Of a stretch of 64,000 bases of DNA, positions 26,431 to 59,317 are shown piece by piece; within the stretch, counting starts at the first letter, position 1; each line of letters opens with the position of its first letter. The position numbers were made by a program, and so were the translations under genes. The stretch is from Haloarcula laminariae (GTDB lineage: Archaea > Halobacteriota > Halobacteria > Halobacteriales > Haloarculaceae), in NCBI RefSeq assembly GCF_025457605.1, contig NZ_JAMZFY010000001.1:1240001-1304000 (forward strand). Direction: 5' to 3'. The notes under the pieces are model-generated. The model was not told the origin of the DNA, searched no databases, and saw nothing but the letters and a program-made list of their open reading frames with translations.

Positions 26431-27027
26431 ATGAGTTCGGACACCCGCTCGAAAGTCGCACGGCTCATCGACGCCTACGACCTCGCGCCCATCGGCGCCG
26501 ACCTGGAGGCCGCGTGGCTGGGGGAGTCGGGCGAGCGACAGAGCCTGCGGGACCTCGCCGACCGGTTCAACCGGGCGCTCCTGCGCTCGGCGGTTCGGGA
26601 CGCCGGCATGGACGTCGTCGACGGAGAAATCCGGAACTACTACCGGCTGCTGACCGCTGAGGACGTGAGCGCTGGCAGGCGGGTCGAGGCCGAGAACCGG
26701 CTCGACGGGTCGGGCCTCGACGTCGACGGGCTAGTCGAGGACTTCGTCACCTACCAGGCGATACGCCACTACCTGACCGAGGTCCGCGGCGCGAGCTACG
26801 AGCGCGACGACCGCGCCGGTGTCGACCGCGAGCGGTCGGTCATCGACCGGCTCCAGAGCCGCGTCGAGCGGGTCGTCCGCGACACCGTCGACCGGCTCGC
26901 CGGCGACGGCCGGCTCGCCGTCGGCGACTACCGCGTGTTCGTCAGCGTGGACGTGCTCTGTGAGGACTGTGGCGGCCAGTACACCGTCGGGGAGTTGCTC
27001 GACCGGGGTCACTGCGACTGCGACTGA
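26431..27027 (+). CDS. Rod-determining factor RdfA family protein (copy 1)
   Basis: This 198-residue protein is of the RdfA family, named for a Haloferax volcanii protein needed for rod-shaped cells. It begins SSDTRSKVARLIDAYDLAPIGADLEAAW, has the conserved helical middle RNYYRLLTAEDVSAGRRVEAENRLD, and ends in a zinc-ribbon-like CEDCGGQYTVGELLDRGHCDCD. A CTTTTGAA element about 26 bases before the ATG fits a leaderless start. Its 3' end overlaps the convergent SMC-related gene by 19 bases. A second RdfA/SMC pair lies at 39.1-41.7 kb. Confidence 0.85.
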   Translation: MSSDTRSKVARLIDAYDLAPIGADLEAAWLGESGERQSLRDLADRFNRALLRSAVRDAGMDVVDGEIRNYYRLLTAEDVSAGRRVEAENRLDGSGLDVDGLVEDFVTYQAIRHYLTEVRGASYERDDRAGVDRERSVIDRLQSRVERVVRDTVDRLAGDGRLAVGDYRVFVSVDVLCEDCGGQYTVGELLDRGHCDCD

Positions 27028-28979: not shown

Positions 28980-29234
28980 CGCCGGGTGCATGGCTCTATC
29001 TCCGCCGGTCCCGATGTTAAGCGCTAGGGCGCGGGCGAGCCCGGCATTTCAGTGTTCCGCCGTTCTCAGGACAACAGAATAACAGGCATATGTTTGTTAG
29101 CTATTCGTGAGCGCCCCCATCATTCCGCACACTTTCAATCACCTTAGTCCGCATAACGAGCAAAAACAATCTGTTCCGTGCATAAACGCTAACGTTTATG
29201 GTAGATAGTGGATGTAGCTATTGGTGTCGCAACA
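28980..29234. promoter_or_regulatory. Divergent region upstream of the SMC-related gene and the fructose PTS operon
   Basis: This AT-richer stretch, about 250 bases, holds no protein-like frame. It contains the palindrome at 29181-29200 described separately and several TTTG/CAAA runs near 29085-29100 and 29155-29175. Confidence 0.5.
29181..29200. promoter_or_regulatory. Inverted repeat overlapping the putative ptfC TATA element
   Basis: CATAAACGCTAACGTTTATG has perfect 8-base arms (CATAAACG/CGTTTATG) around CTAA. The right arm contains TTTATG, which can act as the TATA element for ptfC, whose ATG follows 35 bases later. A site laid over the promoter core is expected for a repressor. The regulator gene is not adjacent. 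Confidence 0.55.
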
Positions 29235-39135: not shown

Positions 39136-40995
39136 TCAAGGCCGGGCGCCGCCCATCTCGACGCGGTCGTACTCGCCGGTCACCGCCTGAGCGTCCTCCG
39201 GCAGAAGCGCGACGACGAGGTGGTCGGGGAAGTCCGCGAAGTACTCGACCAGCGCGGCGATGCGGTCGGCGTCGATGGCCTCCAGCGAGTCGAGCACCAT
39301 CACCGGCACCGTCTCGTGGACGTCGTGAACGAGATAGCCCGCCAGCGCGACGACGAGGCCGATGACCTCGCGTTCCGACTCCGAGAGGTGGCTCAGGGTG
39401 TCCTCGTAGACGACGTCATCGGCCGTCGCCCGGACCACGTGGAGGGCGAACTCGCTTTCGTCGTCCGCCACCGTGCGCTCGATCCACACCCGCTCGATGT
39501 TCTCGTACCCGAGCGCGGCCCGGACCGTCTCCATGTGGTCGTTGAACGTCTCGACCGCCGACCGTTCGAGCGATTCGACGCGGGTGCGGGCGCGTTCGAG
39601 TTCGCTCTCGCGCTCGTCGAGCCGCGACTCGATGTCCGTCAGTCGTGACTCCGCCTCCCGGACCGTCTCCAGTTCGGCCTCGACGGACGCTATCTGCTCT
39701 TCGAGCTGTCCGCGCTCGTACTCCAGCTCCGACCGGCGGCGGTACTGTTCGAGCAGGTCGCTCCCCCGAAGCCCCTCGGCGCTTTCCTCCAGCTCCTCGA
39801 TGCGGTCGTGCAGCTCCTCGGCCCGGGTCGAAAGCTCCGCGACCGTCCCCTCGCGGTCGGCTATCTCGGCTTCGATGTCGTCCAGTTCGTCCTCCAGCGC
39901 CTCGCGCCGGTCGGTCGCCTCCCGACGGTCTGAGAGGTCTGCGCGCCTGGATTCGAGCGTCGAACGGAGCTCGTTGCGTTCGGCCCGCTTCTCGTCGACG
40001 ACCGCCCGGAGGTCATCGAGCTGGTCGTCTATCGCCCCCCGGCCGACGGTCGTCCCGCAGGTCCAGCACTCGACTGTCTCGGTTGTGCTGTCCTCGACGC
40101 CCGGCAGCTCCCCGTCCCCGGTCACCTGTTCGTTGAACTCCACGATGGAGAGGAGGCTCGATATCGTGGTTTCGAGGTCCCGAACGCGGCGCTGCAGGCG
40201 CTCGATCTCGGCTTCGGCGCGGTCGGGGTCCACGTCCGGGACCGACAGCTCGTCCAGTTCGGCGCGCACCTCGTCGCGTTCCTCGCGCAGCGAGGCGACG
40301 GCGTCCCGCTGTGTCTCCAGCCGGTCCCGGACGCGCTCGTAGCTCCCTCGGACGTCCGTGAGCTCGTCGGCGGCGTCCTCGGCCCGTTCGACGGCCCCGG
40401 CGTCGGTCTCGGCGTCTTCTACGGCCGCCCGGACGGCGTCGAGCTCCTCGGTGGTGTCGGCGAGGGCCTCGCGGTGGTCGGCCAGCTGCCGTTCGAGTGG
40501 CGAGCGGCGTTCGGCCGTTCGCTCGGCCGCCGCCCGGTCCTCCCGGAGTGACTCGATGTCCCGCCGGGTCCGCCGTATGGTCGCCTCCAGTTCGTCCGTG
40601 TCGACGGGCGCCATGATGAACGACCGGAGCGCCTCGGTGTCGCCCCGCGCGACCGCTCTGCGGGCCGGGTTGTCGGCCAGCAGGCAGCCGTACTGGTCGA
40701 CGAGCATCGCCTCGTCGGAATAGGGGTCCCCGCCCACGCGGACGGTCTCGCCGTCCCGCTCGAAGGTCCGGGTGTAGTCGGTGCCGTCGAGTTCCAGCGT
40801 CACCGAGCCCCGGTCGGCGTCGGCTTTCAGCGCCCCCGTAGAGCCGCCCAGCGCGGCGCCGATGGCCCGCAGGAGCGAGGTCCGGTTGGTCGCGTTCCGG
40901 CCGGCGAGAACGGTCACGCCCGGGGACAGGCGCACCGTCGCCGACTCGATACCGCCCAGGTTCTCGACGGTCACTGTCGTCTCTCTGTCCGTCAT
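39136..40995 (-). CDS. Archaea-specific SMC-related protein (Sph-like, copy 2)
   Basis: This 619-residue SMC-like ATPase is organised as in copy 1: VTVENLGGIESATVRLSPGVTVLAG with P-loop GRNATNRTS, long coiled coils, hook-like CWTCGTTV near residue 310, then SESEREVIGLVVALAGYLV and Walker B VMVLDSLEAID. It lies 43 bases downstream of an RdfA gene on the same strand, so this pair is an operon, unlike the convergent first pair. The ATPase ends are closely similar between the copies, while the coiled coils differ. Confidence 0.88.
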   Translation of the reverse strand: MTDRETTVTVENLGGIESATVRLSPGVTVLAGRNATNRTSLLRAIGAALGGSTGALKADADRGSVTLELDGTDYTRTFERDGETVRVGGDPYSDEAMLVDQYGCLLADNPARRAVARGDTEALRSFIMAPVDTDELEATIRRTRRDIESLREDRAAAERTAERRSPLERQLADHREALADTTEELDAVRAAVEDAETDAGAVERAEDAADELTDVRGSYERVRDRLETQRDAVASLREERDEVRAELDELSVPDVDPDRAEAEIERLQRRVRDLETTISSLLSIVEFNEQVTGDGELPGVEDSTTETVECWTCGTTVGRGAIDDQLDDLRAVVDEKRAERNELRSTLESRRADLSDRREATDRREALEDELDDIEAEIADREGTVAELSTRAEELHDRIEELEESAEGLRGSDLLEQYRRRSELEYERGQLEEQIASVEAELETVREAESRLTDIESRLDERESELERARTRVESLERSAVETFNDHMETVRAALGYENIERVWIERTVADDESEFALHVVRATADDVVYEDTLSHLSESEREVIGLVVALAGYLVHDVHETVPVMVLDSLEAIDADRIAALVEYFADFPDHLVVALLPEDAQAVTGEYDRVEMGGARP

Positions 40996-41038
40996 CGTTC
41001 ACCGTGTCCGCTGTGTTGGGAGTTCACTGTCGATGGCC

Positions 41039-41656
41039 TCACTGGGTCTGGGCGTCCGTCTCGCAGTCACAGCCGCCCCGGTCGAGGAACCGCTCGACGG
41101 GGTAGCTCCCCCCGCAGTCCGCACAGGAGACGCGGACGACGGTGGTCACGTCGACGGAGCCACAGTGGAACCCGTCGGTGCCGTCCAGTCGCTCGATGGT
41201 CCGGCCGACGATACCCTGGCTCCGGGAGCGGGCCCACTCGATGGTCCCCTCGGCGTCGTCGACGGACAGCGAGCGCTCCCGGGCGGTGTCGACGCCGAGA
41301 CACTCCCGGAAGTGGCTGCGGACCGTCTGGTAGGAGACGAAGTCGCGGTCGAGTTCGGCCGGGTCGACGCCGACGCGCGACAGCCAGGCCTCCGTCTCCG
41401 TCCGCACGCCCGCGCTGACGTCCTCGCCGGTGAGGTTCCGGTAGATGGAGGCGGCGTCCCGGAGCACGTCGGTGTCGGCCCCCTCCAGGGCCGCCTGGAG
41501 GACCGCCTCGTTCACGACGGTCTCCAGACGGCGGAGGCTGGCGCCGTCCGCCCGGCGCTCGCGCAACCGCTCGTCGAGGCCGTCGAGTCCGTACTTTCCG
41601 GCCGTTCGACCGAGCTTGCACGAGCAGGCCCCCGAGACGCGGTCGCCGTCGCTCAT
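41039..41656 (-). CDS. Rod-determining factor RdfA family protein (copy 2)
   Basis: This 205-residue RdfA-type protein has an N-terminal CSCKLGRTAGKYGLDGLDERL with a Cys pair that copy 1 lacks, the conserved IYRNLTGEDVSAGVRTE and VSYQTVRSHFRE, and a C-terminal ribbon CADCGGSYPVERFLDRGGCDCE. The ATG at 41656 starts the recognised domain; one at 41695 would add an arginine-rich MSRRVRPRRRARP and cannot be excluded, since a minus-strand CATAAGTA near 41731 puts the transcript start upstream of both. Confidence 0.82.
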   Translation of the reverse strand: MSDGDRVSGACSCKLGRTAGKYGLDGLDERLRERRADGASLRRLETVVNEAVLQAALEGADTDVLRDAASIYRNLTGEDVSAGVRTETEAWLSRVGVDPAELDRDFVSYQTVRSHFRECLGVDTARERSLSVDDAEGTIEWARSRSQGIVGRTIERLDGTDGFHCGSVDVTTVVRVSCADCGGSYPVERFLDRGGCDCETDAQTQ

Positions 41657-41945: not shown

Positions 41946-42305
41946 ATGTCGAACGACAGTTCCGACGCGGAGACCGAGGAGTCACGGGAGCAGGGCGTCG
42001 AATTCGGGGAGCTGAACGCGGCGCTGGAGCAGGTAGAGTATCCGACGACACAGGAGCAGCTCTTGGCGGAGCACGGCGAGGAGACCCTGGACCTGGCCGA
42101 CGGCGAGGTGACGCTCGCGAGCGTGCTCGCCGAGCAGGAGTCCGCCGAGGAGACGGACACCATTGAGTACGACTCCCCCGAGGCGGTCCGGCAGGCCGTT
42201 CTCAACATGGTCGGGGACCGCGCCGTCGGCCGGACCGACTACAGCGACCGCGGGGGGTCGCTCCCGGACGAGGACGGCGAGGCGGAGAGCGACCAGTCGC
42301 TGTAA
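41946..42305 (+). CDS. DUF5789 family protein
   Basis: This 119-residue very acidic protein matches the DUF5789 pattern: FGELNAALEQVEYPTTQEQLLAEHGEETLDLADGEVTL followed by YDSPEAVRQAVLNMVGDRAVGR. The family is common in haloarchaea and has no assigned function that I know of. A TTAAATTTATCG element about 60 bases upstream could be its promoter. It converges on a small membrane-protein gene. Confidence 0.85.
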   Translation: MSNDSSDAETEESREQGVEFGELNAALEQVEYPTTQEQLLAEHGEETLDLADGEVTLASVLAEQESAEETDTIEYDSPEAVRQAVLNMVGDRAVGRTDYSDRGGSLPDEDGEAESDQSL

Positions 42306-43418: not shown

Positions 43419-45365
43419 ATGGATTTCCAGGGAGTGTCCACGCAGCTGCAGGAGACGCTGGCGGTGTTCGACCGGCCCGGAGCGGGGACACCGCTGACGA
43501 CGAGCGAGGTGGCGAGCGAGCTGTCGGTGTCGCGGCGAAGCACGTACGAGCGTCTCACGCGGCTGTCGGAGCGGGGGCTGTTGAAGACGAAGAAAGTGGG
43601 GGCCAAAGGCCGCATCTGGTGGCGGGACAGCGAGCCGACGGCCGACCTCGAACGGCGCGTCCGTCAGCAGGAGGTCGTGGCGGAGCTGGGACAGTACGCG
43701 CTCGCGGACCACGACATCGAGTCGGTCCTGCAGCTGGCCTGTGAAGGCGTCACCGAGACCCTGGGGACCGACTACTGCAAGGTCCTGGACCTGGCCGAGG
43801 ACGGCGAGTCGTTGCTGCTTCGGACCGGCGTCGGCTGGCGGGACGGCATCGCCGGTTCCGCCACGGTGTCGGCGACCGACGACGACTCACAGGCGGCCCA
43901 CACACTGGCCACCGACGAACCGATTGTCGTCGACGACCTACAGACCGAGCGCCGGTTCAGCGGCCCCGACCTGCTGAGAAGCCACAACGTCACAAGCGGC
44001 ATCAGCGTCATCATCGGGACCGCCGAGGAGCCGTGGGGAATCCTCGGCACCCACGACACCGAGCGGCGGTCCTTCGGCGCCTACGACGTGAACTTCGTCC
44101 AGTCGGTCGCGAACATCCTGGCGTCGGCGATAACCAGGCGCGAAGGCGAGGCGGCGCTGGTCAGTCAGCGCAAGCAACTCGCCGCGCTGACCAACCTCCA
44201 GTCGGTCGTCCGCGTGACCACGGACGCCGTCATCGACCAGTCGACCCGGAGCGAAATCGAGTCAGTCGTCTGTGAGCACCTGGCCGCGAGCGACTCCTAC
44301 GAGTTCGCCTGGATCGGCGACGTCGACCACCGGTCACAGAGGGTCCGGCTCAGAGCCGAGGCCGGCGTCGACGACTACCTCGACGGGACCACTATCTCGG
44401 TCGACCCGGACGACGAACGGAGTGACGGGCCCACGGGACGGGCGTTTCTGACCGGCGAGACGCAGACCTCCGACCACATCCGGACGGACCCGGACTACGA
44501 GCCGTGGCGCGACCACGCCGACGAGTACGGCTACCAGTCCTCGGCCGCCATTCCCATCGTCCACGAGGGGGCCGTCTACGGCGTCCTGAACGTCTACGCC
44601 GACCGACCGGCGGGCATCACCGGTCGCGAAAAGACCGTCATCACACAGCTCGGCGAAATCGTCGGCCACGCCATCGCGGCCGCCGAGCGCAAGCGTGCGC
44701 TGTTGAGCGATACGGTGACCGAACTGGGCTTTCACCTGGGGGATATCGGCGCTCTCCTCGGCGTCGACGACGGCAGCGGGACGGTGACCGTCGATGATAC
44801 GATTCCGGTTTCCGACGGCGAGTATCTGCTGTACGGGACGGTGACCCGGGACGCCGCCGAGCTGATTACGGCCGTCGGCGACCGGCTGGACCACTGGACG
44901 GGGGCCGAGATACACGACTGGGACAGCGAGGGACGGGCCAGCTTCGAGGCGCGGCTCCGGGACCCGCCGGTGCTTACGGCCCTGGCGAACGCCGGCGGCG
45001 GTATCGTGGAGGCCGGAGTCGAGGACGGGCGGGCCCACATGACGCTCCAGCTCCCGCCGGGCGGGGACGTACGGAGCGTCATCGAGACGGTCCAGACGGT
45101 GTATCCCGGCGCCGAGATGCTGACCCGGCGCCAGACCACGCGGGAGCGGATACAGACGACGACGCTCGAAATCGGCGCGGAACTGACCGACCGACAGTCG
45201 GCCGTCCTCAGAGCCGCCTACCGCGCGGGCTTTTTCGAGTGGCCCCGCCCGGTGTCCGGCGAGGACGTCGCCCACTCGCTCGGCATCTCACCGCCGACCT
45301 TCCACCAGCATCTCCGGAAAGCGGAGAAAAACGTCTTCGACACGCTGGTCCCGGCGCTCCTGTGA
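43419..45365 (+). CDS. Bacterio-opsin-activator-type transcriptional regulator with two GAF domains
   Basis: This is a 648-residue protein. Residues 10-70 form a winged helix (PLTTSEVASELSVSRRSTYERLTRLSERGLLKTKK). Two GAF domains follow (about 78-235 and 245-425). A Bat-associated domain covers about 430-580, and a C-terminal HTH_10 domain about 585-645 (LTDRQSAVLRAAYRAGFFEWPR ... SGEDVAHSLGISPPTFHQHLRKAEKNV). No PAS or kinase domain is present. It senses an unknown small molecule or redox signal and controls transcription. It is directly upstream of the glutamine-rich gene cluster and is the best candidate for its regulator. Confidence 0.88.
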   Translation: MDFQGVSTQLQETLAVFDRPGAGTPLTTSEVASELSVSRRSTYERLTRLSERGLLKTKKVGAKGRIWWRDSEPTADLERRVRQQEVVAELGQYALADHDIESVLQLACEGVTETLGTDYCKVLDLAEDGESLLLRTGVGWRDGIAGSATVSATDDDSQAAHTLATDEPIVVDDLQTERRFSGPDLLRSHNVTSGISVIIGTAEEPWGILGTHDTERRSFGAYDVNFVQSVANILASAITRREGEAALVSQRKQLAALTNLQSVVRVTTDAVIDQSTRSEIESVVCEHLAASDSYEFAWIGDVDHRSQRVRLRAEAGVDDYLDGTTISVDPDDERSDGPTGRAFLTGETQTSDHIRTDPDYEPWRDHADEYGYQSSAAIPIVHEGAVYGVLNVYADRPAGITGREKTVITQLGEIVGHAIAAAERKRALLSDTVTELGFHLGDIGALLGVDDGSGTVTVDDTIPVSDGEYLLYGTVTRDAAELITAVGDRLDHWTGAEIHDWDSEGRASFEARLRDPPVLTALANAGGGIVEAGVEDGRAHMTLQLPPGGDVRSVIETVQTVYPGAEMLTRRQTTRERIQTTTLEIGAELTDRQSAVLRAAYRAGFFEWPRPVSGEDVAHSLGISPPTFHQHLRKAEKNVFDTLVPALL

Positions 45366-45661: not shown

Positions 45662-46486
45662 ATGAACTACCAAGGAAATCAGCAGCAAGGGCAGCAGCAG
45701 CACGACCAGCAGCACACCGAGCGGTCCGGCCAGCAGAGCCAGGGTCTCACAGAGGAGCAGGGCCTCGGACAGAGCGGTATCTTCGGGCACGAGTCGACAC
45801 AGCGGCTGACAAGCCAGTTCCAGCCACACAGCCAGGGGAGCGGCCGCCAGCAGTCCCAGGGGATGCAACACCAGCAGGGACAGCAACATCAACAGAACCA
45901 GCAGCGCCAGCAGCCACAGCAGATGGGTCACCAGGGCCAGCAGCACCAGGGACAGCAGCCATACCAGCAGTCCCGACAGCCCCAGGGCCAGCAGAGCCAC
46001 CAGCATCAGCAGCCACAGCAGCATCAGCAGAACCAGCAGCGCCAGCAGCCACAGCAGATGGGTCACCAGGGCCAGCAGCACCAACAGCAACCACAGGGAC
46101 AACAGAGCCAACAGCAGCCACAGCAGCAGTTCCAACAGCCCCAGGGCCAGCAGAGCCACCAGCATCAGGGCCACCAGAGTCAACAGCACCAGCGGTCCCG
46201 ACAGCCACAGCAGCAGTCCCGACAGCCCCAGGGCCAGCAGAGCCAGCAGCCATACCAGCAGTCCCAGCAGCCGCAGGGACAACAGCGCCAGCAGCACCAG
46301 CAGTCCCGGCAGTTCCAGCAGCCACAGGGCCAGCAGAGCCAACAGCAGTCCCGACAGCCCCAGGGCCAGCAGAGCCAGCAGCCGTCCCAGCAGAGCAACC
46401 TCCAACACACCAGCCAACAGCCGTCCCAGCAGAGCGGCCTCCAGCTCCGGCAACGGTCCCAGAAACAGCAGTCCGAGGAATACTGA
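45662..46486 (+). CDS. Glutamine-rich, basic low-complexity protein
   Basis: This 274-residue protein is roughly half glutamine, with His, Ser, Arg, Pro and Gly making up most of the rest. Recurring units are PQGQQSQQ, QQSRQPQGQQ and QPQQMGHQGQQHQ. Acidic residues are nearly absent after residue 45, so it is net basic, opposite to the haloarchaeal proteome. A 56-base segment at 45893-45948 recurs exactly at 46028-46083, showing internal duplication. The first 60 residues (TERSGQQSQGLTEEQGLG, FGHESTQRLTSQF) are less simple. No fold or enzyme motif is seen. Composition suggests a disordered, prion-like or condensate-forming protein. Function unknown; clean stop and start argue it is expressed. 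Confidence 0.7.
   Translation: MNYQGNQQQGQQQHDQQHTERSGQQSQGLTEEQGLGQSGIFGHESTQRLTSQFQPHSQGSGRQQSQGMQHQQGQQHQQNQQRQQPQQMGHQGQQHQGQQPYQQSRQPQGQQSHQHQQPQQHQQNQQRQQPQQMGHQGQQHQQQPQGQQSQQQPQQQFQQPQGQQSHQHQGHQSQQHQRSRQPQQQSRQPQGQQSQQPYQQSQQPQGQQRQQHQQSRQFQQPQGQQSQQQSRQPQGQQSQQPSQQSNLQHTSQQPSQQSGLQLRQRSQKQQSEEY
45893..46083 (+). repeat. Exact 56-base direct duplication in the glutamine-rich gene
   Basis: Bases 45893-45948 and 46028-46083 are identical by eye, offset by 135 bases (45 codons), so the duplication keeps frame. Shorter CAG/CAA-rich repeats continue through the gene. This points to growth by slippage or unequal exchange. Confidence 0.75.
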
Positions 46487-46798
46487 ACGGTCTCACGCCG
46501 CATAGCCATCGAGCGCGCCGCCGTGTGTGACAGGGTCGCCGCTGTCTGAGCGTGCCCTGCCGCCGGCGCCACAACACCCGCGCGACACCCGGAGCGCGGC
46601 CCCGCTTTTCGCTGTCGACAGTGACCTCGACCAGTGTCGAGAGTAGACTACGAACGTCCGCGCTCGCCACGGGTAGCCGTTGACGGGAGATGTAGGGCGG
46701 CCTACGCTCCGCTAAAGTCGGGTTTCGAGTCGGTAATACGCCGATTACCGGCTATATCTGTCCGTGGAATTAAAGGCCAGAAGCCCGAACTGTCACTG
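46487..46798. other. 312-base intergenic region
   Basis: No convincing gene is seen. A GAATTAAAGG stretch about 30 bases before the ATG at 46799 may be the promoter of the repeat protein. The rest is G+C-rich without obvious repeats. Confidence 0.4.
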
Positions 46799-48118
46799 AT
46801 GTCACAAGATAGAGACCCGAACACGGAGAGCCAGGTAACGACAGACGCCGACACGATTCGGTCGTGGGCCGGGACACACACCATGGTCCCGGTCCGCCGG
46901 GACGCCGGGGACGACCCGCGGCTCGAAGTTGTCTCGGAGGACGAGATGCACGCGGACCACCAGGAGATAGACTGGACGGAGTTCGAAGGTGAGCTACGGG
47001 ACCAGGGGATGGTCGTAGTCCGGAGCGGCGAGTCGACCGATGACATCGACGTCGTCGACCGGTCGACGGTCATCAGCCGCGCAACCGTCGGGAGCGAGGC
47101 GGTCGAGGAGGCGCTGATGGAGGGCGAGACCGTCGAGAGCGAGATAACCGAGCGGCGTGTCGTCGAACACGTCGTCGTCGAGGAGGCCACTGTCGAAAGC
47201 GAGATAGTCGGCCGCGAGACCGTCCAGAGCGATATCGTCGCCGTGGACCTGCTGGCGACGGACGTAAAACAGTGCTCGGTGACGCGCGCCGAACCCCCCG
47301 AGGAGTCGACGACGGACCTGAGCTGGTTCCAGCCGGGGACCAATCTGGACGACCCGTACGACGTCGAGATAGACGTCGACGAGGAGTGGTCGGTCACGCG
47401 CGAGGTCGTCGAGCGCATCACCATCGAGAGTCAGGTCGTCGACACGGACGTCGAGGGGACCGAGACCGTCGAGAGCGACACGATGCGCGAGACCGTCGAC
47501 ATCGCGGGGGTCACGGAGACGGTGCTGCAGGGGGAACTCGTCGAGTCGCCGGAGACGGCGGCGGCCGCCGTCGAACGCGGCCACGTCGAGAGCCAGTTCC
47601 GCGAGGACGACATCATCGAGACGAACCTGCTCCGTCGCCAGACAATCGACGAGGAGATGACCGTCAGCAAGATGATAACGGGACAGGTCTCCGACGCGGA
47701 GACCGTCAGCGCCGACGCGGTCTCCCACACCGTCGTCGACAGCGAAATCGTCGAACAGTCGGAGTACGGCGTCGACCTCGCTGGCGCGACCGACGCGTCG
47801 ACGGGGGCCACCGTGGGGGCCGGCGGCGCGGCGACCGCCGACACCGAGATGCCCGACGACGCGGACATCAGGGTCATGCCCATGGAGGAAGACGAGGGCA
47901 AGAACGTCGTCAACCCCGACGGCGAGGAAGTCGGAATGGTCGTCGACGTCGACGACGGCCAGATGTACGTCGACCCGCACCCGTCGATAACCGACCGCAT
48001 CAGGACCGCGCTGGGCTGGAGCGACCACGACGACGACAGCTACCTGCTGGGTACCGACCACATCGACTACATCGACGACGACCAGGTCGTCCTGCGGATG
48101 GAACGCGAGGGGGAGTAG
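46799..48118 (+). CDS. Period-10 repeat protein with C-terminal PRC-barrel-like domain
   Basis: This 439-residue acidic protein has an N-terminal domain (1-80, SWAGTHTMVPVRRDAGDDPR). A long region about 80-325 follows, built on a near-10-residue period with the pattern E-T-V-E-S-E-I, for example MEGETVESEI, VEEATVESEI and VGRETVQSDI, interrupted once around residues 160-200. Residues about 365-439 (GKNVVNPDGEEVGMVVDVDDGQMYVDPHPSITDRI ... DHIDYIDDDQVVLRM) look like a PRC-barrel. The periodic part probably forms a beta-solenoid. PRC-barrels usually mediate assembly. It lies between the glutamine-rich gene and a HalOD1 gene. Confidence 0.7.
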   Translation: MSQDRDPNTESQVTTDADTIRSWAGTHTMVPVRRDAGDDPRLEVVSEDEMHADHQEIDWTEFEGELRDQGMVVVRSGESTDDIDVVDRSTVISRATVGSEAVEEALMEGETVESEITERRVVEHVVVEEATVESEIVGRETVQSDIVAVDLLATDVKQCSVTRAEPPEESTTDLSWFQPGTNLDDPYDVEIDVDEEWSVTREVVERITIESQVVDTDVEGTETVESDTMRETVDIAGVTETVLQGELVESPETAAAAVERGHVESQFREDDIIETNLLRRQTIDEEMTVSKMITGQVSDAETVSADAVSHTVVDSEIVEQSEYGVDLAGATDASTGATVGAGGAATADTEMPDDADIRVMPMEEDEGKNVVNPDGEEVGMVVDVDDGQMYVDPHPSITDRIRTALGWSDHDDDSYLLGTDHIDYIDDDQVVLRMEREGE

Positions 48119-48330
48119 CCCGTCGCTATCGATTCCGGGGACCGCGGCCTTCGACAGCGACGACCAGCCGCGGACGGTTCGAACCGCGATAGGGTCGTGC
48201 TACCCGGTCACAGCGCCGGAACCGCCGGCCAGTAGCCCGGAGTAATCCGGGAGTCGCCCCGCGTTTTCCACCGCCGTGGACCGATGCCAATCGGGGAGAA
48301 AGCTTTTGTTACCCGACAGGCAACGGAAGG

Positions 48331-48681
48331 GTGTCACAATCAATGTATCGTAACGAGACACACGCGAATCACTCGCCCCGACACCAGGGGGCCGGGACGT
48401 ACTTCGTCAAGCACGACTTCGACGGGTCGGCCGAACTGACGACCACGCTCGCACACGCGCTGTCGGACATCAGCGGCGTCGACGTGACGGATGCGGGTTT
48501 CACGCTGTACGACTACATCGACCCCGACGCGCTCGACCGGCTGTTCAAACCCGGGGCCGGCGGCGCCCAGCGCGTCAACGGGACACTCACGCTGACGGTC
48601 TGGGACCACCAGGTGACGATACACAGCGACGGACAGATAGCTATCGTCCCACCACAGCAGACGCCCCAGCCGACGCGGTGA
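48331..48681 (+). CDS. HalOD1 output-domain protein
   Basis: This 116-residue protein matches the HalOD1 haloarchaeal output domain: AGTYFVKHDFDGSAELTTTLAHALSDISGVDVTDAGFTLYDYIDPDALDRLF then VNGTLTLTVWDHQVTIHSDGQIAI. It is a single domain with a Pro/Gln tail (PPQQTPQPTR). Start is either the GTG at 48331, about 25 bases after a CTTTTGTT promoter element, or the ATG at 48343. HalOD1 domains often occur with signal-transduction proteins. Confidence 0.82.
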   Translation: MSQSMYRNETHANHSPRHQGAGTYFVKHDFDGSAELTTTLAHALSDISGVDVTDAGFTLYDYIDPDALDRLFKPGAGGAQRVNGTLTLTVWDHQVTIHSDGQIAIVPPQQTPQPTR

Positions 48682-48955
48682 AAGCAGCGTAAGCGGGTTT
48701 TTCCCGTCTCCACCTGTCCTCGGCAACTGACGGACGCACCGACCGACTCCCGGTATCGGATGCCCCATCGTGAGAGAGAGTAACGCTTACCCGCTGAACA
48801 GTGCCGCCGGTTTATTACTGACACCGCCATCCGGTCTGATGCACACGAACAACGCGTAGCGCGTGCCGGATACCGCCTCGAACAGCCCGGTTACGGTCTG
48901 TCGCGCTTCGGGGGCGGCCCGACGTGTGTACTGTGCGGACGACCCATCACCAACC

Positions 48956-49774
48956 ATGAGCCAATCCGATATGCAACAGACGGTCGAGCTGATGAGCAAC
49001 GCGATTCAAATGCAGCAAAACGCTCTCGACATCGGGCAGGAGGCCCTGGACCAGGCCGTCGAGATACCGCTGAAACAGTCTATCGAACTCCAGCGGAGCG
49101 CGGGGAAGCTGTTTCTCAACGGGCTGGAGATGAGTAGCTGGATCGGTAACCGGAGTACCGAGCTGACCCGTGAGGCGATGGACACCTACTTCCGGACGGT
49201 CGATAACGCCGCCGAGAACGCCGCGCAGATGACCGAGCAGGGCATAGAGCAGGCCACCCGCATGACGGACCAGGGCCTCCAGCAGGCCGGCAACGTGGGC
49301 CAACAGCAGCTCCAGGCCCAGCAGGCGCAGTTCCAGCCCGGCAACGCCTTCGGCGGCCAGCAGCGCGCTGGCGAACCACAGCCGGGGGCTGAACAGCCCG
49401 CATACGACGGGCGGAGCCAGCCGCCACAGCAGTCGATGGGTCAGCAACGCGGGCAACAGCAGCCCCCGGCCCGGCAGCCGCCAGCCAACCCACAGGCACA
49501 GCGGCCGCCGCAAGGGAGGGAGACGGCCCAACCCACCAGGCAGTGGATTCAGCGGCCGCCTGTCCAGTCCCAGCAGCCGGTCCAGTCACAGCAGCCCGTC
49601 CAGTCCCAACAGCCCGCCCCGGAGTACCAACAGCGACAGCCCCAGCAGCCACAGAAGCAATCCCAACAACAGCAGCCTCAACAGCCCCAGCAGTCCGAGC
49701 GCCAGCTTGCGGTGGCGGGCGGCGTGCCCGAGGAGGAGTCGAGCAGCACAGAGGCCCCCGTCGACAGCAATTAA
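48956..49774 (+). CDS. Phasin-like helical protein with Q/P-rich disordered tail
   Basis: This 272-residue protein's residues 1-120 form amphipathic helices resembling phasins and other granule-coating proteins (QNALDIGQEALDQAVEIPLKQSIELQ, EAMDTYFRTVDNAAENAAQ). From about 120 onward the sequence is Gln/Pro/Ala-rich with repeated QSQQPVQSQQPVQ and PQQPQQSE. The ATG at 48956 begins MSQSDMQQTVELMSNAIQMQQ. No PHA synthase is in the window. It may coat a granule or scaffold a condensate with the other Q-rich proteins nearby. Confidence 0.7.
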   Translation: MSQSDMQQTVELMSNAIQMQQNALDIGQEALDQAVEIPLKQSIELQRSAGKLFLNGLEMSSWIGNRSTELTREAMDTYFRTVDNAAENAAQMTEQGIEQATRMTDQGLQQAGNVGQQQLQAQQAQFQPGNAFGGQQRAGEPQPGAEQPAYDGRSQPPQQSMGQQRGQQQPPARQPPANPQAQRPPQGRETAQPTRQWIQRPPVQSQQPVQSQQPVQSQQPAPEYQQRQPQQPQKQSQQQQPQQPQQSERQLAVAGGVPEEESSSTEAPVDSN

Positions 49775-49887
49775 GGGCCGCCCCATCCGCCGTTTTCAGC
49801 GTTCAGACCCGAGTAATCCGGTGGTACCGCGGCTAGCTCGGTCGTACTTATCTGTCGGCCAATCGAAGGATCAGACGGTGTTTCACA

Positions 49888-50232
49888 GTGCAAATCATCT
49901 GTAAAGACGGAACCACGATACAGTGTGCCGACTTCAAGGCCATCGATTCCGGCGTCCTGTTCTTCCAGGAGGACATGGCGCGAGCGGGCGAGTCTGAGGA
50001 GGAATCAGAAGCGGACGAATCGGACGAAGGGGCCGACGGCTTCGTGCCGATCACCGAGCTACACTTCGTGTTGCCCGACGAGATGGTCCAGCAGGCTCCC
50101 CAGCCGACCGGGGTGCCGGAACAGGGCCGCGCCGGCGGGGCGGGGCACGGAGCGCCGACGCAGCAAAGCGGCCACACACAGCAACAGCAGACCCAGCAGT
50201 TCCCCCGCGGACCGGGCCAGTCCGGCCGGTAG
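49888..50232 (+). CDS. Small protein with acidic middle and Q-rich tail
   Basis: This 114-residue protein starts at a GTG (49888). The first 35 and 60-80 residues look folded (QIICKDGTTIQCADFKAIDSGVLFFQ, then FVPITELHFVLPD), separated by an acidic stretch EESEADESDEGADG. The last 35 residues are Gln/Gly-rich (THSGHTQQQQTQQ-like, ending GPGQSGR). The small beta domain recalls short haloarchaeal proteins with strands around CDxF. It closes the row of Q-tailed proteins. Confidence 0.65.
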   Translation: MQIICKDGTTIQCADFKAIDSGVLFFQEDMARAGESEEESEADESDEGADGFVPITELHFVLPDEMVQQAPQPTGVPEQGRAGGAGHGAPTQQSGHTQQQQTQQFPRGPGQSGR

Positions 50233-50521: not shown

Positions 50522-51160
50522 CTACCGGGATACCGTTTCGTACGCCGGGGGGCGGGACGGGAGCCGAAGCCACGGGTGCGTGGGCAGGTAGACCGCCTGC
50601 GGTCGCGGATACCCGGTCGGGTTCGCGACGAAGACGGGCCGTGATGTCGAGCGCGCTTCGGGCCCCCGACCGGGAACAGCCGGTGACTCCGTCCCCGCCG
50701 TCGTATCGCCCGGTACGGCCGTCCGGGATTCGGCGTCTGTCTCGCCAGGGGAGTCGGACGCGGACGGCGGGCTATCGGTCTCCCGGTCCACGTCCGCCGG
50801 TTCGGTTTCCTGTTCGTTCGCTTCGTCCGTGGGGTCACTCTCTTCGTCCATCTGTTCGGATTCCGGGCCTCGGGTTCCTGTCGTCGGTGTCGATTCGTCC
50901 TCGCTGGCCGATTGCCCGCCCGCCTCGGGGGCCGAGCTGTCGGGTTCTGACTCCCTGCCGGTCGGCGCGGGGTCGCTCCCGGCGTCCTCGGCCGACCGGT
51001 CAGCCGGCTCGTCGGGTCGGTCCCGCTCGCTCTCCGGCGAATCCGACGTCCCGTCCGGCCGCTCGTCTTTGGGGAGGAACTTCCCGGTTTCCGGGTCCCG
51101 TGGCGGCCGCTCGGTGCCCTCGTCGTCTCCCCGTTGTGTGTCAGAGTCGTCCGATGTCAT
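50522..51160 (-). CDS. Acidic, intrinsically disordered protein
   Basis: From MTSDDSDTQRGDDEGTERPP this 212-residue frame is dominated by Asp, Glu, Ser, Pro and Thr up to about residue 165, then turns Pro/Arg-rich (RGPEARSTSRPVFVANPTGYPRPQ). The start RDPETGKFLPKD resembles tails of small haloarchaeal DNA-associated proteins. No domain is recognised. The change in composition near the end could be a frameshift or true tail. Existence as a gene is moderately supported by the acidic composition. Confidence 0.5.
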   Translation of the reverse strand: MTSDDSDTQRGDDEGTERPPRDPETGKFLPKDERPDGTSDSPESERDRPDEPADRSAEDAGSDPAPTGRESEPDSSAPEAGGQSASEDESTPTTGTRGPESEQMDEESDPTDEANEQETEPADVDRETDSPPSASDSPGETDAESRTAVPGDTTAGTESPAVPGRGPEARSTSRPVFVANPTGYPRPQAVYLPTHPWLRLPSRPPAYETVSR

Positions 51161-51317: not shown

Positions 51318-52061
51318 TCAGAGGTAGCCGCCGTCCCACTCGTCGGCCAGGTGGACGTTGCCACAGTCCCCACACTCCAGTCGGTCGAGGCCGTCGGCGG
51401 TCACGTCGGTACTCCCGCACTGCGAGCAGAAGTAGCCGTGGGCCGACTCCCGGTCCTCGGTGACGAACGTGCGGAAAAACGGCGCCTCACGGCCGGGAAT
51501 CGGTTCCTCGCGGTCGAGCGGGCGGTCCTCGCCGTCGGCGTCGACCGTCTCGGGAACCGGGACGGCCGGCTCGTTGAGCTCCTCGTTCCGGTCGCCCTCG
51601 GCGTAGACCGTCAGCCCGAACTCGTGTCCGCCGACTTCGAGCGAATCGCGGCCCTGTTCGGCGAGGCCGAACTGCTCGCAGAACCCCCCGCCCTCGACGG
51701 CGGCGTCGAGGACCTCCCAGGTGAGGGGTCGGTCGCCGTGCTCCGAACGTAGTCGCTCGATAAGCGCCGTCGCGATACCCTGCCCGCGGGCTTCCGGGTC
51801 GACGTGGAGCCAGCGGATGCGCCCGTCCGCCGTGCCGTCGAGGAACCCCGACAGAATCGTCTCGTCGTCGACCTCCGCCTCGGCTGCGAGGAACCAGCCG
51901 TCCGATTCGGACAGCCGGTCCTCAAGCGCCTCCGACGAGAACGCTTGCTCGATTATCGTCGCTATCTCCTCGGGGCTGAGCGCGAACGAAGAGTTGAACG
52001 AACTCTCCGCGATGCGCTCGATACGCTCGCTGTCGGACGGTGTCGCCTCTCGGATATCCAT
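51318..52061 (-). CDS. GNAT-family N-acetyltransferase with C-terminal zinc ribbon
   Basis: This is a 247-residue protein. Residues 1-155 are a GNAT domain (MDIREATPSDSERIERIAE, acetyl-CoA loop ARGQGIATALIERL). Residues 210-247 are a zinc ribbon CSQCGSTDVTADGLDRLECGDCGN. GNAT enzymes move an acetyl group from acetyl-CoA to an amine; the acceptor is unknown. The ribbon may recruit it to protein or nucleic acid. It lies just outside the ORB array of the replication origin. Confidence 0.85.
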   Translation of the reverse strand: MDIREATPSDSERIERIAESSFNSSFALSPEEIATIIEQAFSSEALEDRLSESDGWFLAAEAEVDDETILSGFLDGTADGRIRWLHVDPEARGQGIATALIERLRSEHGDRPLTWEVLDAAVEGGGFCEQFGLAEQGRDSLEVGGHEFGLTVYAEGDRNEELNEPAVPVPETVDADGEDRPLDREEPIPGREAPFFRTFVTEDRESAHGYFCSQCGSTDVTADGLDRLECGDCGNVHLADEWDGGYL

Positions 52062-52229: not shown

Positions 52230-52653
52230 TAACAACGGAACCGGTGGGGTTCATCTCCCCGGAGTCGGCTAACAGCGGAAGCGATGGTGTCGTGAGAGCG
52301 GCGCTAACAGCGGAACCAGTGGGGGTGTCGGTTCGCGGTAACAACGGGTCCGGCGGGCGTATGGGCCTGCAGGAACAGCGGAGCCGCGGGAATAGCAGTC
52401 CGTGGTAACAGCGGAACCGGTGGGGTAGACTTTCCGGACCACCCGATCGCTGACCTCACCGACGCCGTCCGAGGCTAACAGCGGAACCAGTGGGGTGAGA
52501 GCGGCGAGCGGGCAATAACAGCGGAACCAGTGGGGTAACCCCGCCCGATAAGTGACCTTACTCACTGACGGAGGGGGAAAGGTATCGTTACTCGATTCCT
52601 GAGCGACGACGAAAGCGAGGCATTCGACCCGCTAACAGCGGAACCGGTGGGGT
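52230..52653 (+). repeat. Array of ORB-like repeats downstream of orc1/cdc6
   Basis: Copies of AACAGCGGAACC(A/G)GTGGGGT, usually preceded by T, occur in one orientation at 52230-52250, 52305-52326, 52406-52426, 52476-52496, 52516-52536 and 52633-52653; weaker copies are at 52270-52290, 52339-52360 and 52373-52392. The last intact copy touches the stop codon of the orc1/cdc6 gene. The same sequence flanks the origin upstream of that gene. The whole interval 52062-52652 contains no gene. Such a downstream ORB-rich block was described for one Haloarcula hispanica origin as negatively controlling initiation by titrating the initiator. Confidence 0.9.
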
Positions 52654-53840
52654 CAGGGGGTCGCGTCGAGTATCTCGGAGAGCCCCGTCTTCACCGAGGA
52701 GACGGACTGTTCCAGCTCGTGTTCCTTGTACTTCCCGCCGCCCTTGCCGCGGTTGAACTCCGTCGATGAGATGATTCCCAACTGGTCCAGTTCGCCCAGA
52801 TAATCGCGCACGGACCGCAGCGAGACCGGGTCCATGCCGTTCTCGTTTGCCACCTGCTGGTAGGCCGCCAGGATGTCCTTCGTGCGGGCCGGCGTCTCGT
52901 TTCGTTCCGCGAGCAGCGTCAGCGCATACAGAACGAGCTGTCCGTGGTCGGAGTAGTTCCTGATACCCTCGACCACCTGGTCGGTCTGGAGTCGCTGTCG
53001 GGCCTCGCGAACGTGTGCCTCGGTGACGAGGTCGTCGTTGTACTCCCGGGCGAGGTCACCGGCTTCGAGCAGGAGGTCCAGCGCCTGACGCGCGTCCCCG
53101 GAGTCCTTGGCACCGTAGGCGGCACACATCTGGACGACGCCGTCGTCGAGGACGCCCGACTTGAACGCGACCGAGTCCCGTTGCTGGAGAACGAGCTGTA
53201 GCTCCTGGGCGTCGTACGCCGAGAAGGAGACCTCCTTCTCACAGAGGCTCGAGCGGACCTTCGAGGAGAGCTGGTTCCTGAAGTCGAGGTCGTTGGAGAT
53301 ACCGATGACACCGAGTTTCGCGTCGGTCACGTCGCCGTTCGACCGCGCCCGCGGGAGCTTATACAGGAGCGAGTCGTCCTGGATGTGGTCGACCTCGTCT
53401 AAGACGATGAGGACCGTGCCGCCGACCTCGTTGAGCTCCTCGAAGAGGAACTGGTAGACCGAAGCCTGCGGGTATCCGGTGTTCGATATCTGCTTTGCGG
53501 GGTCGCGGAGCTCGTTGACGAGGGCGACGGCGGCCTGGTAACTCGAGTTGAGCCCGTCGCAGTTTATCTCGATAGTGTGGAGGTCGAGTTCGGGGACGTC
53601 CGCCGCGTCGCGTTTGAGCGCGTTGAGGAGATATCGGGTCGCGGCCGTCTTTCCGACGCCGCTCTTGCCGTAGAGGAAGATGTTTGACGGGCTTTCGTTG
53701 TTGATGACCGGTTGCAACGCGGCGTGATACCGCTGGAGCTCGTTGTCGCGGCCCACGAGTTCTTCCGGCGTCCACTCCTCCAGCAGCGCCTCACGCTTCT
53801 CGAAAATCGACGACGTCGGCGTAAACGAGAGGTCACTCAT
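52653..53840 (-). CDS. cdc6: Orc1/Cdc6 family replication initiator
   Basis: This 395-residue AAA+ initiator has Walker A GKSGVGKT (58-65), Walker B IVLDEVD (146-151) and sensor-1 region KLGVIGISNDLDF. An arginine-bearing lid ARQALDLLLEAGDLA follows, and the C-terminal winged helix (about 300-395) contains NGMDPVSLRSVRDYLGELDQLGII. It binds origin recognition boxes and loads MCM helicase. ORB-like repeats lie on both sides of the gene, so it is almost surely the cognate initiator. Its promoter (TATATAAAA at 53922-53914) sits next to an ORB, suggesting autoregulation. Confidence 0.95.
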   Translation of the reverse strand: MSDLSFTPTSSIFEKREALLEEWTPEELVGRDNELQRYHAALQPVINNESPSNIFLYGKSGVGKTAATRYLLNALKRDAADVPELDLHTIEINCDGLNSSYQAAVALVNELRDPAKQISNTGYPQASVYQFLFEELNEVGGTVLIVLDEVDHIQDDSLLYKLPRARSNGDVTDAKLGVIGISNDLDFRNQLSSKVRSSLCEKEVSFSAYDAQELQLVLQQRDSVAFKSGVLDDGVVQMCAAYGAKDSGDARQALDLLLEAGDLAREYNDDLVTEAHVREARQRLQTDQVVEGIRNYSDHGQLVLYALTLLAERNETPARTKDILAAYQQVANENGMDPVSLRSVRDYLGELDQLGIISSTEFNRGKGGGKYKEHELEQSVSSVKTGLSEILDATP

Positions 53841-58685: not shown

Positions 58686-59093
58686 TCAATACGCGTCGAC
58701 GATGTCGATATCCAGGAGCTCGCGAACCGGGCCCTTGTCGAAATCGTTCCTGTCCGCGGTCGCCAACGTCGCCTGGTGCTGGCGTGCCGTTGCGGCGATG
58801 AGGAGGTCGACACCGTCGAGTGAGATACCGGCGTCATCGAGCGAGGTTTCCATGCTGGCCGCCTCCGCCGCGGTGTCGGCATCGAACGGGAGCACGTCGT
58901 CGACGGCCTGGGTCAGCTGGTGGCGCCGGGCGCGCTGTTTTGACTGGCTCTCGTAGTAGCTCAGGAATTCGTAGAGGACCAGCGCCGAGATGCCCCACGG
59001 TTCACTCCGGTGGGCCGAGAGATAGTCGAGAACGGCTTCATCCGGGTCCGGGCGCGCGTACTTTCGGACGATGTTGTTGTCGAGGAGAATCAT
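58686..59093 (-). CDS. vapC: PIN-domain ribonuclease toxin (VapC-like)
   Basis: This 135-residue PIN-domain protein has acidic residues Asp5 (LLDNNIV), Glu42 (VLYEFL), Asp96 (VDLLIAATA) and Asp114/Asp117 (ATADRNDFDK), the set needed for metal-dependent RNA cleavage. It overlaps the upstream antitoxin gene by 4 bases, the usual order. It would act on tRNA or rRNA when the antitoxin is lost. Confidence 0.88.
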   Translation of the reverse strand: MILLDNNIVRKYARPDPDEAVLDYLSAHRSEPWGISALVLYEFLSYYESQSKQRARRHQLTQAVDDVLPFDADTAAEAASMETSLDDAGISLDGVDLLIAATARQHQATLATADRNDFDKGPVRELLDIDIVDAY

Positions 59094-59317
59094 TCCACGC
59101 CCGATGGCCGGGATTCGAACGACTCGTTGAGCTCCTCGCGTCTCTGTTTCATGTGCTCCTCGACGCCCTCCTCGGCGAATCCGGCCATCTCACGCACGTC
59201 CTCCTCAGTCCGGGTGATTGCGAGCCGGTCGAGCAGTTCGTCGAACGTCTCCCCTTCGCGCTTCACCGCTTCGAGTTTGGCTTTCGTCTCCTCGGAGATG
59301 CGAATTGACGAACTCAT
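59090..59317 (-). CDS. vapB: VapB-type antitoxin
   Basis: This 75-residue protein begins MSSSIRISEETKAKLEAVKREGETFDELLDRLA, a ribbon-helix-helix pattern used to bind its own promoter. A charged C-terminal part follows (FAEEGVEEHMKQRREELNE) to wrap the toxin. The ATG at 59317 is chosen because the RHH strand starts there. First gene of the pair. Confidence 0.85.
   Translation of the reverse strand: MSSSIRISEETKAKLEAVKREGETFDELLDRLAITRTEEDVREMAGFAEEGVEEHMKQRREELNESFESRPSGVE

Follow-up and report, generated by a model that had tools for sequence, protein, structure and literature searches.

A haloarchaeal gene island encoding unrelated proteins with shared glutamine-rich tails

Introduction

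Haloarchaeal proteins are acidic and sit in molar salt, and low-complexity segments rich in glutamine are most familiar from eukaryotes. A survey of proteomes reports glutamine-rich occupancy that is uniquely high in the top-ranking proteomes of eukaryotes, as against those of archaea and bacteria (PMC11132505). Why, then, does the haloarchaeon Haloarcula laminariae encode a run of glutamine (Q)-rich proteins? The run lies in a 64,000-nucleotide stretch of its genome (contig NZ_JAMZFY010000001.1, positions 1,240,001 to 1,304,000; hereafter the window). It consists of five intact open reading frames (ORFs), all on the + strand, whose outer boundaries are exactly positions 45662-50232 of the window. 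They encode an all-glutamine protein that we call QrP, a protein with a period-5/10 repeat, a HalOD1 protein, a phasin-like protein and a small protein. An earlier reading of the letters alone (the sequence-only reading) had described a one-strand cluster of five genes behind a GAF/Bat-type regulator, an arrangement that we recover in full, and had suggested that basic, Q-rich tails bring otherwise unrelated proteins together in one assembly. Here, we find that unrelated folded modules (phasin-like, Dps, Csp1-like, a CBS pair and a small domain) carry low-charge Q-rich tails and are encoded together, usually accompanied by the all-glutamine protein. Judged by its relatives, the window locus is a reduced copy of a larger conserved haloarchaeal island.

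Glutamine-rich proteins of the window

The protein that had been described as about half glutamine is QrP, with 49% Q. The phasin-like protein, with 25% Q over its 272 aa, reaches 55% Q in its best 40-residue window, and its tail of 162 residues is 32% Q. In the small protein (114 aa, 14% Q overall, best window 30% Q), the tail spans 48 residues with 27% Q. Both tails had been anticipated. The Pro/Gln tail credited to the HalOD1 protein did not hold up, being about ten residues long and no real Q tail, and the period-10 protein is 3% Q. Because these two have no real Q tail, the expression 'shared tails' fits three of the five window members.

The tails had also been called basic and unusual for an acidic proteome. 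They are far less acidic than other proteins: aspartate and glutamate (D+E) make up 1.8-7.6% of the Q segments, by family, versus 16.7% in 851 other called genes, where families were assigned by a crude regular expression and 23 of the 851 comparison genes are Q-rich themselves. They are near neutral, not strongly basic, with K+R minus D+E at +8 for QrP (plus 19 His), 0 for the phasin-like tail and +2 for the small-protein tail.

The concentration of glutamine is also visible in the DNA. A spaced Q-codon pattern, CARCARNNNCARCAR, has 65 matches in the 3.69 Mb genome, 24 of them on the + strand inside these 4.5 kb. The reversed pattern, with 73 and 73 matches in the same genome, is an unfair control because it holds GAC, an Asp codon abundant in haloarchaea. 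Among the 41 matches outside the island, we checked those in 11 stretches and in L135-L138 (here and below, L and G numbers are our handles for loci and genomes, G000 being the window genome). Outside the island, only one place has three overlapping matches, the end of a protein that looks prefoldin-like by eye; a membrane-anchored protein has a pair. The prefoldin-like protein (L135) and the proteins of the pha locus (L165) aside, the checked matches yielded three frames with at least 22% Q in 40 residues, two of which are probably antisense. A pattern of five consecutive Q codons was rejected in favor of the spaced one, as it has two matches in the genome, neither in the island.

A conserved island in related genomes

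The phasin-like protein was searched for in 146 genomes of the family, and 33 matched. Neighborhoods of up to 20 kb were taken around the strong matches and a few weak ones, and their genes were called and clustered. For the island set, we selected 23 genomes on the strength of a match to the phasin-like or the Csp1-like protein and searched them with profiles on all frames and on called genes. The set uses the matched neighborhoods of 18 of the 33 genomes, and G141 enters solely through its Csp1-like gene. The remaining 14 matched genomes gave weak matches (E 2e-7 to 1e-3); two weak-match neighborhoods, L084 (G109) and L086 (G023), contained no island. The ordinary pha locus of G074 (L087) was excluded from the set.

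A phasin-like gene is present in 20 genomes from 8 genera, and its product has a Q-rich tail in all of them except G122 (19/20). In 19 of the 20, another Q-tailed family is encoded on the same contig; in G107, a fragmented draft, the phasin-like gene and the other Q-tailed families are on different contigs. At least three of six families (QrP, phasin-like, small protein, CBS, Dps, Csp1-like) share one contig in 17/23 genomes. The genes span 3.9-25.7 kb in 16 of these, and in G064 they lie on both sides of a contig end. The genes are thus neighbors in other genera, and there Dps, Csp1-like and CBS proteins bear the same type of tail. The check by conserved gene order that the sequence-only reading had proposed therefore did not refute its idea.

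Fuller islands add a bacterial-type Dps, a Csp1-like four-helix protein and a CBS pair. They also encode a rubredoxin-like protein with DUF7130, an FAD/Rieske oxidoreductase and, recognized by eye, small PRC-like proteins. Scoring as tailed any protein whose tail has at least 12% Q, and taking the best copy per genome in island loci, we found tails on Csp1-like proteins in 19/19 genomes, on Dps in 11/11, on CBS in 12/14 and on the small protein in 10/10. The CBS proteins of G077 and G080 were scored untailed with a called start after the Q-rich stretch, and RefSeq has the same start in G080. QrP-like frames occur in 15/23 genomes (union of the all-frame and called-gene searches) and the small protein in 10/23. 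Q tails are found on phasin-like proteins in 7 genera and on Csp1-like proteins in 9. In 16/20 genomes, the gene immediately upstream of the phasin-like gene, in the same orientation, is the HalOD1 gene.

Glutamine richness at these loci is largely confined to the six families. Across 41 partly overlapping loci, 82 of 912 called genes, some counted twice where loci overlap, encode a 40-residue window with at least 25% Q, and most of them belong to the six; the exceptions are phasin-type proteins (L084, L086, L087), a PhaR (L087) and the prefoldin-like protein (L135).

A class-wide profile search of 391 genomes with the phasin-like domain matched 152, and it also finds the phasins of pha loci. 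We fetched 15 neighborhoods, 14 of them from genomes beyond the 23. One of these, L219, belongs to another family and holds a divergent island with a phasin-like protein (22% Q), a 17% Q protein and, by eye, FAD-oxidoreductase-like, DUF5789-like, GNAT-like and HalOD1-like proteins and a small protein with a Q-rich start. Among the matches listed, and judged by eye, the remaining neighborhoods comprise seven ordinary pha loci and six with phasin-like genes without Q-tailed neighbors. In L220 (G190), also of another family, a phasin-like gene at 9133 on the - strand encodes a protein with 26% Q and has no other Q-tailed gene in the fetched 20 kb.

The window genome itself gave no tailed Dps, Csp1-like or CBS protein, the CBS having been sought by the Q-codon pattern alone. 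A phmmer-type search of 28 genomes with the all-glutamine protein found only itself; composition correction probably removes such matches, and this null is therefore no evidence of absence. We sought Q-rich frames directly instead.

On plasmid pHOS100 of Halorientalis sp. IM1011, the CBS and HalOD1 proteins bear domain names, and the phasin-like, all-glutamine and Csp1-like proteins are annotated as hypothetical. At 94910-95833 and 86012-86947 of this plasmid (L234), RefSeq renders the all-glutamine frame as a truncated and an antisense coding sequence and places the start of the CBS gene beyond its Q-rich stretch. The split frame and the hypothetical labels may explain why the set has escaped notice. 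The sequence-only reading knew of no described system with these components, and in the open-access literature, as far as its accessible text goes, we found no description of this gene set.

Tails belong to the island and co-vary within genomes

Dps and Csp1-like proteins are encoded both inside and outside islands, which allows tailed and untailed copies to be compared. All 10 examined island Dps copies have Q-rich extensions; the copy at L197 scored a Q fraction of 0.12 through wrong delimitation, and its N-terminal end is Q-rich in the sequence. By comparison, 26 non-island Dps copies were found and 20 of them examined, among them that of the window genome, and none of the 20 is tailed. Island Csp1-like copies have 18-43% Q in their end residues. 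Among 15 distinct non-island Csp1-like copies, none is tailed: their N-terminal ends are 8-23 residues long, their C-terminal ends are short, and these ends have 0-12% Q. Loci L154 and L156, with no called Csp1-like copy, stand outside the control count. As the examined non-island copies are untailed, Q tails are not a general property of the Dps and Csp1-like folds in these cells.

We then compared the amino-acid composition of tails from different families within a genome, subtracting each family's mean and taking the cosine between families. Over all genomes, the mean cosine for tails was 0.283 (136 pairs), against 0.000 +- 0.036 in shuffles, none of which reached it (0/5000). For folded cores it was 0.011, a value reached by 1673/5000 shuffles. 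With one genome per genus, tails gave 0.173 (13/5000) and cores 0.017 (1780/5000); over 30 random choices of representatives, the tail value averaged 0.188, with a lowest value of 0.076 and a mean shuffle fraction reaching the value of 0.02. When Q was omitted, the tails of all genomes still gave 0.150 (0/5000). Tail co-variation therefore exists, and part of it is shared Q richness. It is expected if tails must match one another; shared repeat turnover could also give it.

The phasin-like protein and polyhydroxyalkanoate granules

The helical head of the phasin-like protein aligns with haloarchaeal PhaP (hhalign 98.1%, E 9.6e-14, 79 columns, 20% identity), and this profile match identifies the domain as a remote relative of PhaP, as its phasin-like, helical look had suggested. 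A profile search of solved structures with the domain reached a best E of only 0.21. PhaP is described as the main structural protein of poly(3-hydroxybutyrate-co-3-hydroxyvalerate) (PHBV) granules in Haloferax mediterranei (PMC10948481). The likeness to PhaP lies in the N-terminal domain. PhaP is encoded in the locus phaR-phaP-phaE-phaC, whereas the phasin-like gene lies outside it, and the window genome has both. Counted from after residue 110, the phasin-like protein also has a Q-rich tail of 79-288 residues, which is missing from the phasin of the pha locus. We name it phasin-like, not PhaP, because it is encoded outside the pha locus, which has its own phasin.

A phasin domain with a low-complexity tail has a precedent in Pseudomonas PhaF, which is described as a largely disordered tetramer that links the granule to another partner (PMC5658603). 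The PhaF tail is strongly positive, made of AAKP repeats and DNA-binding, whereas the phasin-like tail is Q/P-rich and near neutral. The latter is also of a type common to other island proteins.

Metal-handling proteins of fuller islands

The tailed island Dps of G027 passes the family model NF006975 (146.8 bits against a cut-off of 114), and a solved bacterial Dps matches the tailed island Dps in sequence with E 4.9e-26. The G027 Dps keeps H, H, D and E at the ferroxidase positions of the alignment, which we take to be the ferroxidase ligands. Island Dps is of the same family as the bacterial-type Dps mini-ferritins, plus N-terminal and often C-terminal Q-rich extensions, and it differs from the untailed copies of DpsA type that these genomes also encode.

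The core of the Csp1-like protein matches the TIGR04401 profile of Csp1/Csp3 copper storage proteins and a solved Csp3 (E 2.5e-7). The G027 core stays below the TIGR04401 cut-off (43 bits against 100), and for this reason we call it Csp1-like only. It has nine cysteines, counted by eye, and Q-rich tails; Csp3 has about 18 cysteines. Neither Dps nor the Csp1-like protein is part of the window's island.

The repeat protein

The period-10 repeat noticed in the second gene of the window is borne out: over residues 89-330 of its product, self-identity peaks at lags 5, 10 and 15 (z 3.8-4.0). Full-length relatives in the three closest genomes are 74-79% identical. Its structural model, of modest to low confidence, has long beta strands and a C-terminal PRC-barrel-like domain. 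For the repeat region, structure comparison gave no trustworthy match, and a Pfam search of the protein to E 10 gave none. Residues ~360-437 resemble the PRC-barrel protein MTH1859 (Z 6.6, rmsd 2.2, 58 aligned), A. fulgidus PRC1/PRC2 (Z 6.0, rmsd 4.0, 62 aligned) and CdpB1/CdpB2 (Z 5.0, rmsd 3.9, 61 aligned), all at Z below 8, where a common arrangement alone may explain the match. Matches to the protein were found in 96/142 genomes, mostly through its C-terminal part. We rejected it as an island marker: it is not diagnostic, because the PRC-like end is widespread and a 36% identical relative in Halorussus ruber (L160) has no Q-tailed neighbors.

A proposed tail-held assembly

What could such tails do? 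We propose that the island encodes one tail-held protein assembly, a phasin-anchored body that, in fuller islands, would gather iron- and copper-handling proteins. Going by sequence evidence, we give this proposal roughly even chances. Oligomeric heads (Dps shells, phasin coiled coils, CBS dimers) would each display many tails, which may bind one another and the all-glutamine QrP, acting as matrix or scaffold, to form a condensate or granule coat. The phasin-like head would anchor the body to a hydrophobic surface, perhaps a polyhydroxyalkanoate (PHA) granule, and the cargo of fuller islands would handle iron and copper, protecting the cell under stress. The window genome, which keeps scaffold, phasin-like protein and small protein, may retain the shell alone. 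Charge-based condensation should be weak in molar salt, which would make polar Q-rich tails a plausible means of self-association. Beyond tails that are shared, island-bound and co-varying, we infer every step, including condensation, location and function.

The idea that the proteins meet through their tails is thus partly supported, and the shared assembly appears better supported than the sequence-only reading could know: the examined paralogs outside the island are untailed and tails co-vary within genomes, although just three of the five window proteins are tailed.

Several observations weigh against this proposal. The untailed comparators belong to other subfamilies (~28-42% identical), so that tail and subfamily are confounded. 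Tail co-variation is weak when Q is omitted and one genome per genus is used (0.071, 338/5000). The unfoldedness index is negative for the tails, yet it is also negative for folded acidic parts and is weak evidence. Q-tailed Csp1-like proteins occur in G063, G083 and G141 without a phasin-like gene in the fetched stretch. The window genome's pha locus, on another contig (G000:C2:282-285 kb), has its own ordinary 183-aa phasin, which makes the phasin-like protein a second phasin-type protein, and AlphaFold2 (AF2) models the phasin-like domain poorly (pLDDT 53.8), with a result too weak for a structure search. PHA synthase, tried as a test of a role at PHA granules, proved uninformative: all 23 island genomes have it, but so do 127/146 genomes overall. 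Finally, metal cargo is not the whole role in the window genome, as the metal-handling members were not found there.

A bolder version is that the body is a membraneless organelle with an address code, in which a low-charge Q tail, tuned to the composition of each lineage, would deliver any protein that bears it (iron shell, copper store, CBS sensor or phasin-like coat) and the all-glutamine protein would be the matrix. Given sequence evidence of this kind, we regard it as possible and hold it only tentatively.

Alternative explanations

The alternative that survives best, though we consider it unlikely, is that the tails are independent shields. Each would hydrate or solubilize its own protein during low-salt shock or desiccation, with no binding between tails, and the genes would be grouped for co-induction. 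The tails are indeed nearly uncharged with few hydrophobic residues, and Dps, Csp1-like, CBS and the FAD/Rieske enzyme resemble a general stress set. This explanation does not account for tail composition co-varying between families when cores do not, nor for QrP, a protein that is all tail.

A role in cell shape or positioning is less probable still. Here, the island would be part of an RdfA/ASRP(Sph3)/HalOD1 system, and the Q-rich proteins would scaffold shape or poles, not store. In Haloferax volcanii, rdfA, sph3 and the HalOD1 gene ddfA lie next to one another and control rod and disk shape (PMC10869688). In the window, RdfA and ASRP genes lie 4-6.5 kb upstream of QrP. Full RdfA genes lie within 17.5 kb of the island in 11/20 phasin-like genomes (distances taken by hand), which have 1-6 RdfA matches per genome, and in three further genomes (G095, G103 and G106) the island itself contains a short RdfA-like fragment, which in two of them scores below the cut-off. 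NCBIfam identifies ASRP in the window and G018, and its blastp relatives stand beside RdfA in six more genomes (G022, G027, G028, G074, G077 and G080). The association of RdfA with the island looks well above chance for so few copies, an estimate and not a computed value; it does not hold in every genome, and these genomes are relatives of one another. The HalOD1 gene adjoining the phasin-like gene and the weak CdpB1/CdpB2 match of the period-10 protein would fit such a role as well. Against it, no RdfA was found near the island in G089, G090, G114, G066 and G122 (G107 is too fragmented to tell). The island HalOD1 protein passes PF18545 (cut-off 26.3 bits) and has the same domain as DdfA, but it misses the DdfA model NF053557 (48.4 bits against a cut-off of 70) and its gene is paired with the phasin-like gene. 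We also know of no cell-shape role for Dps, Csp1-like or CBS proteins.

Selection bears on the third alternative. Tails and QrP, for which low-complexity alignment is uncertain, gave dN/dS of 0.21-0.36 (QrP), 0.29-0.40 (phasin-like tail, against 0.04-0.09 in the head) and 0.11-0.21 (small-protein tail); in comparisons with the window, the phasin-like head gave 0.07-0.09 and the tail 0.34-0.40. Neutral growth, in which CAG repeats expanded and recombined between neighboring genes without function, would suit the predominance of CAG among Q codons and the named copies on plasmids (though the searches were mostly of plasmid records), but it is highly improbable given these ratios, the mixing of CAG and CAA in nearly all Q-rich segments, the QQQQ kept in 9/9 aligned small-protein tails and the persistence of tails across genera.

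Gene neighborhood of the window island

The features of the locus and its flanks are collected in Table 1. The GAF-GAF-BAT-HTH_10 protein is likely the transcriptional regulator of the Q set; its loose gene cluster is represented in 16/21 clustered loci. The GNAT/DUF5816 cluster is found in 12/21, one of them (L087) outside islands. The RDPxTGxF motif occurs in 8/1455 called genes (6 distinct, the 8 including repeats from overlapping loci), exclusively in QrP or the acidic disordered neighbor family, whose window member has a partner in G022. The HalOD1 gene has an alternative GTG start at 48331.

Table 1. Genes of the glutamine-rich locus and its flanks, in window positions.
Feature	Position	Strand	Details
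QrP (all-glutamine protein; proposed scaffold)	45662..46486	+	274 aa, 49% Q
Period-5/10 beta-repeat protein, PRC-barrel-like C-terminal domain	46799..48118	+	439 aa, without Q tail
HalOD1 protein	48343..48681	+	112 aa; PF18545, 71.7 bits
Phasin-like protein: helical head ~residues 1-110, Q/P-rich tail 111-272	48956..49774	+	hhalign to PhaP
Small Q-tailed protein with conserved N-terminal domain (MQIICKDGT...)	49888..50232	+	alignment
GAF-GAF-BAT-HTH_10 regulator	43419..45365	+	Pfam
Acidic disordered protein, RDPxTGxF motif as in QrP of relatives	50522..51160	-	motif search
GNAT acetyltransferase with DUF5816, conserved neighbor	51318..52061	-	cluster membership
RdfA (rod-determining factor A family)	41039..41656	-	PF21811, 182.8 bits, cut-off 27
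ASRP (archaea-specific SMC-related protein), RdfA's pair	39136..40995	-	NF045487, 591 bits, cut-off 300

The window contains two RdfA/ASRP (Sph3-type) pairs, at 39136-41656 and 26431-28991, about 10 kb apart. A DUF5789 protein is encoded at 41946-42305 (+); a DUF5789 gene is also annotated in the pHOS100 island, and genes similar to it were seen in L161 and L219 by looking at the sequence. An Orc1/Cdc6-type gene (named by eye; 52653-53840, -) adjoins the island. G027 and a Haloarcula rara plasmid carry close copies of it at the corresponding position, which suggests that the window segment may derive from a plasmid. Further downstream, a PIN-domain protein (58686-59317, -) with a VapB-type antitoxin forms an ordinary toxin-antitoxin pair.

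Implications

As far as the open-access literature goes, the parts are known and the gene system is new; it is the gene system that is new, the body in the cell being proposed. The coexistence of tailed and untailed forms of Dps and of Csp1-like proteins within the same genomes puts a genetic test within easy reach. If the tail-held assembly exists, it would be a multi-component, tail-addressed compartment in archaea, and it would join PHA-type granule coats, the handling of iron and copper and possibly cell-shape factors in one system.

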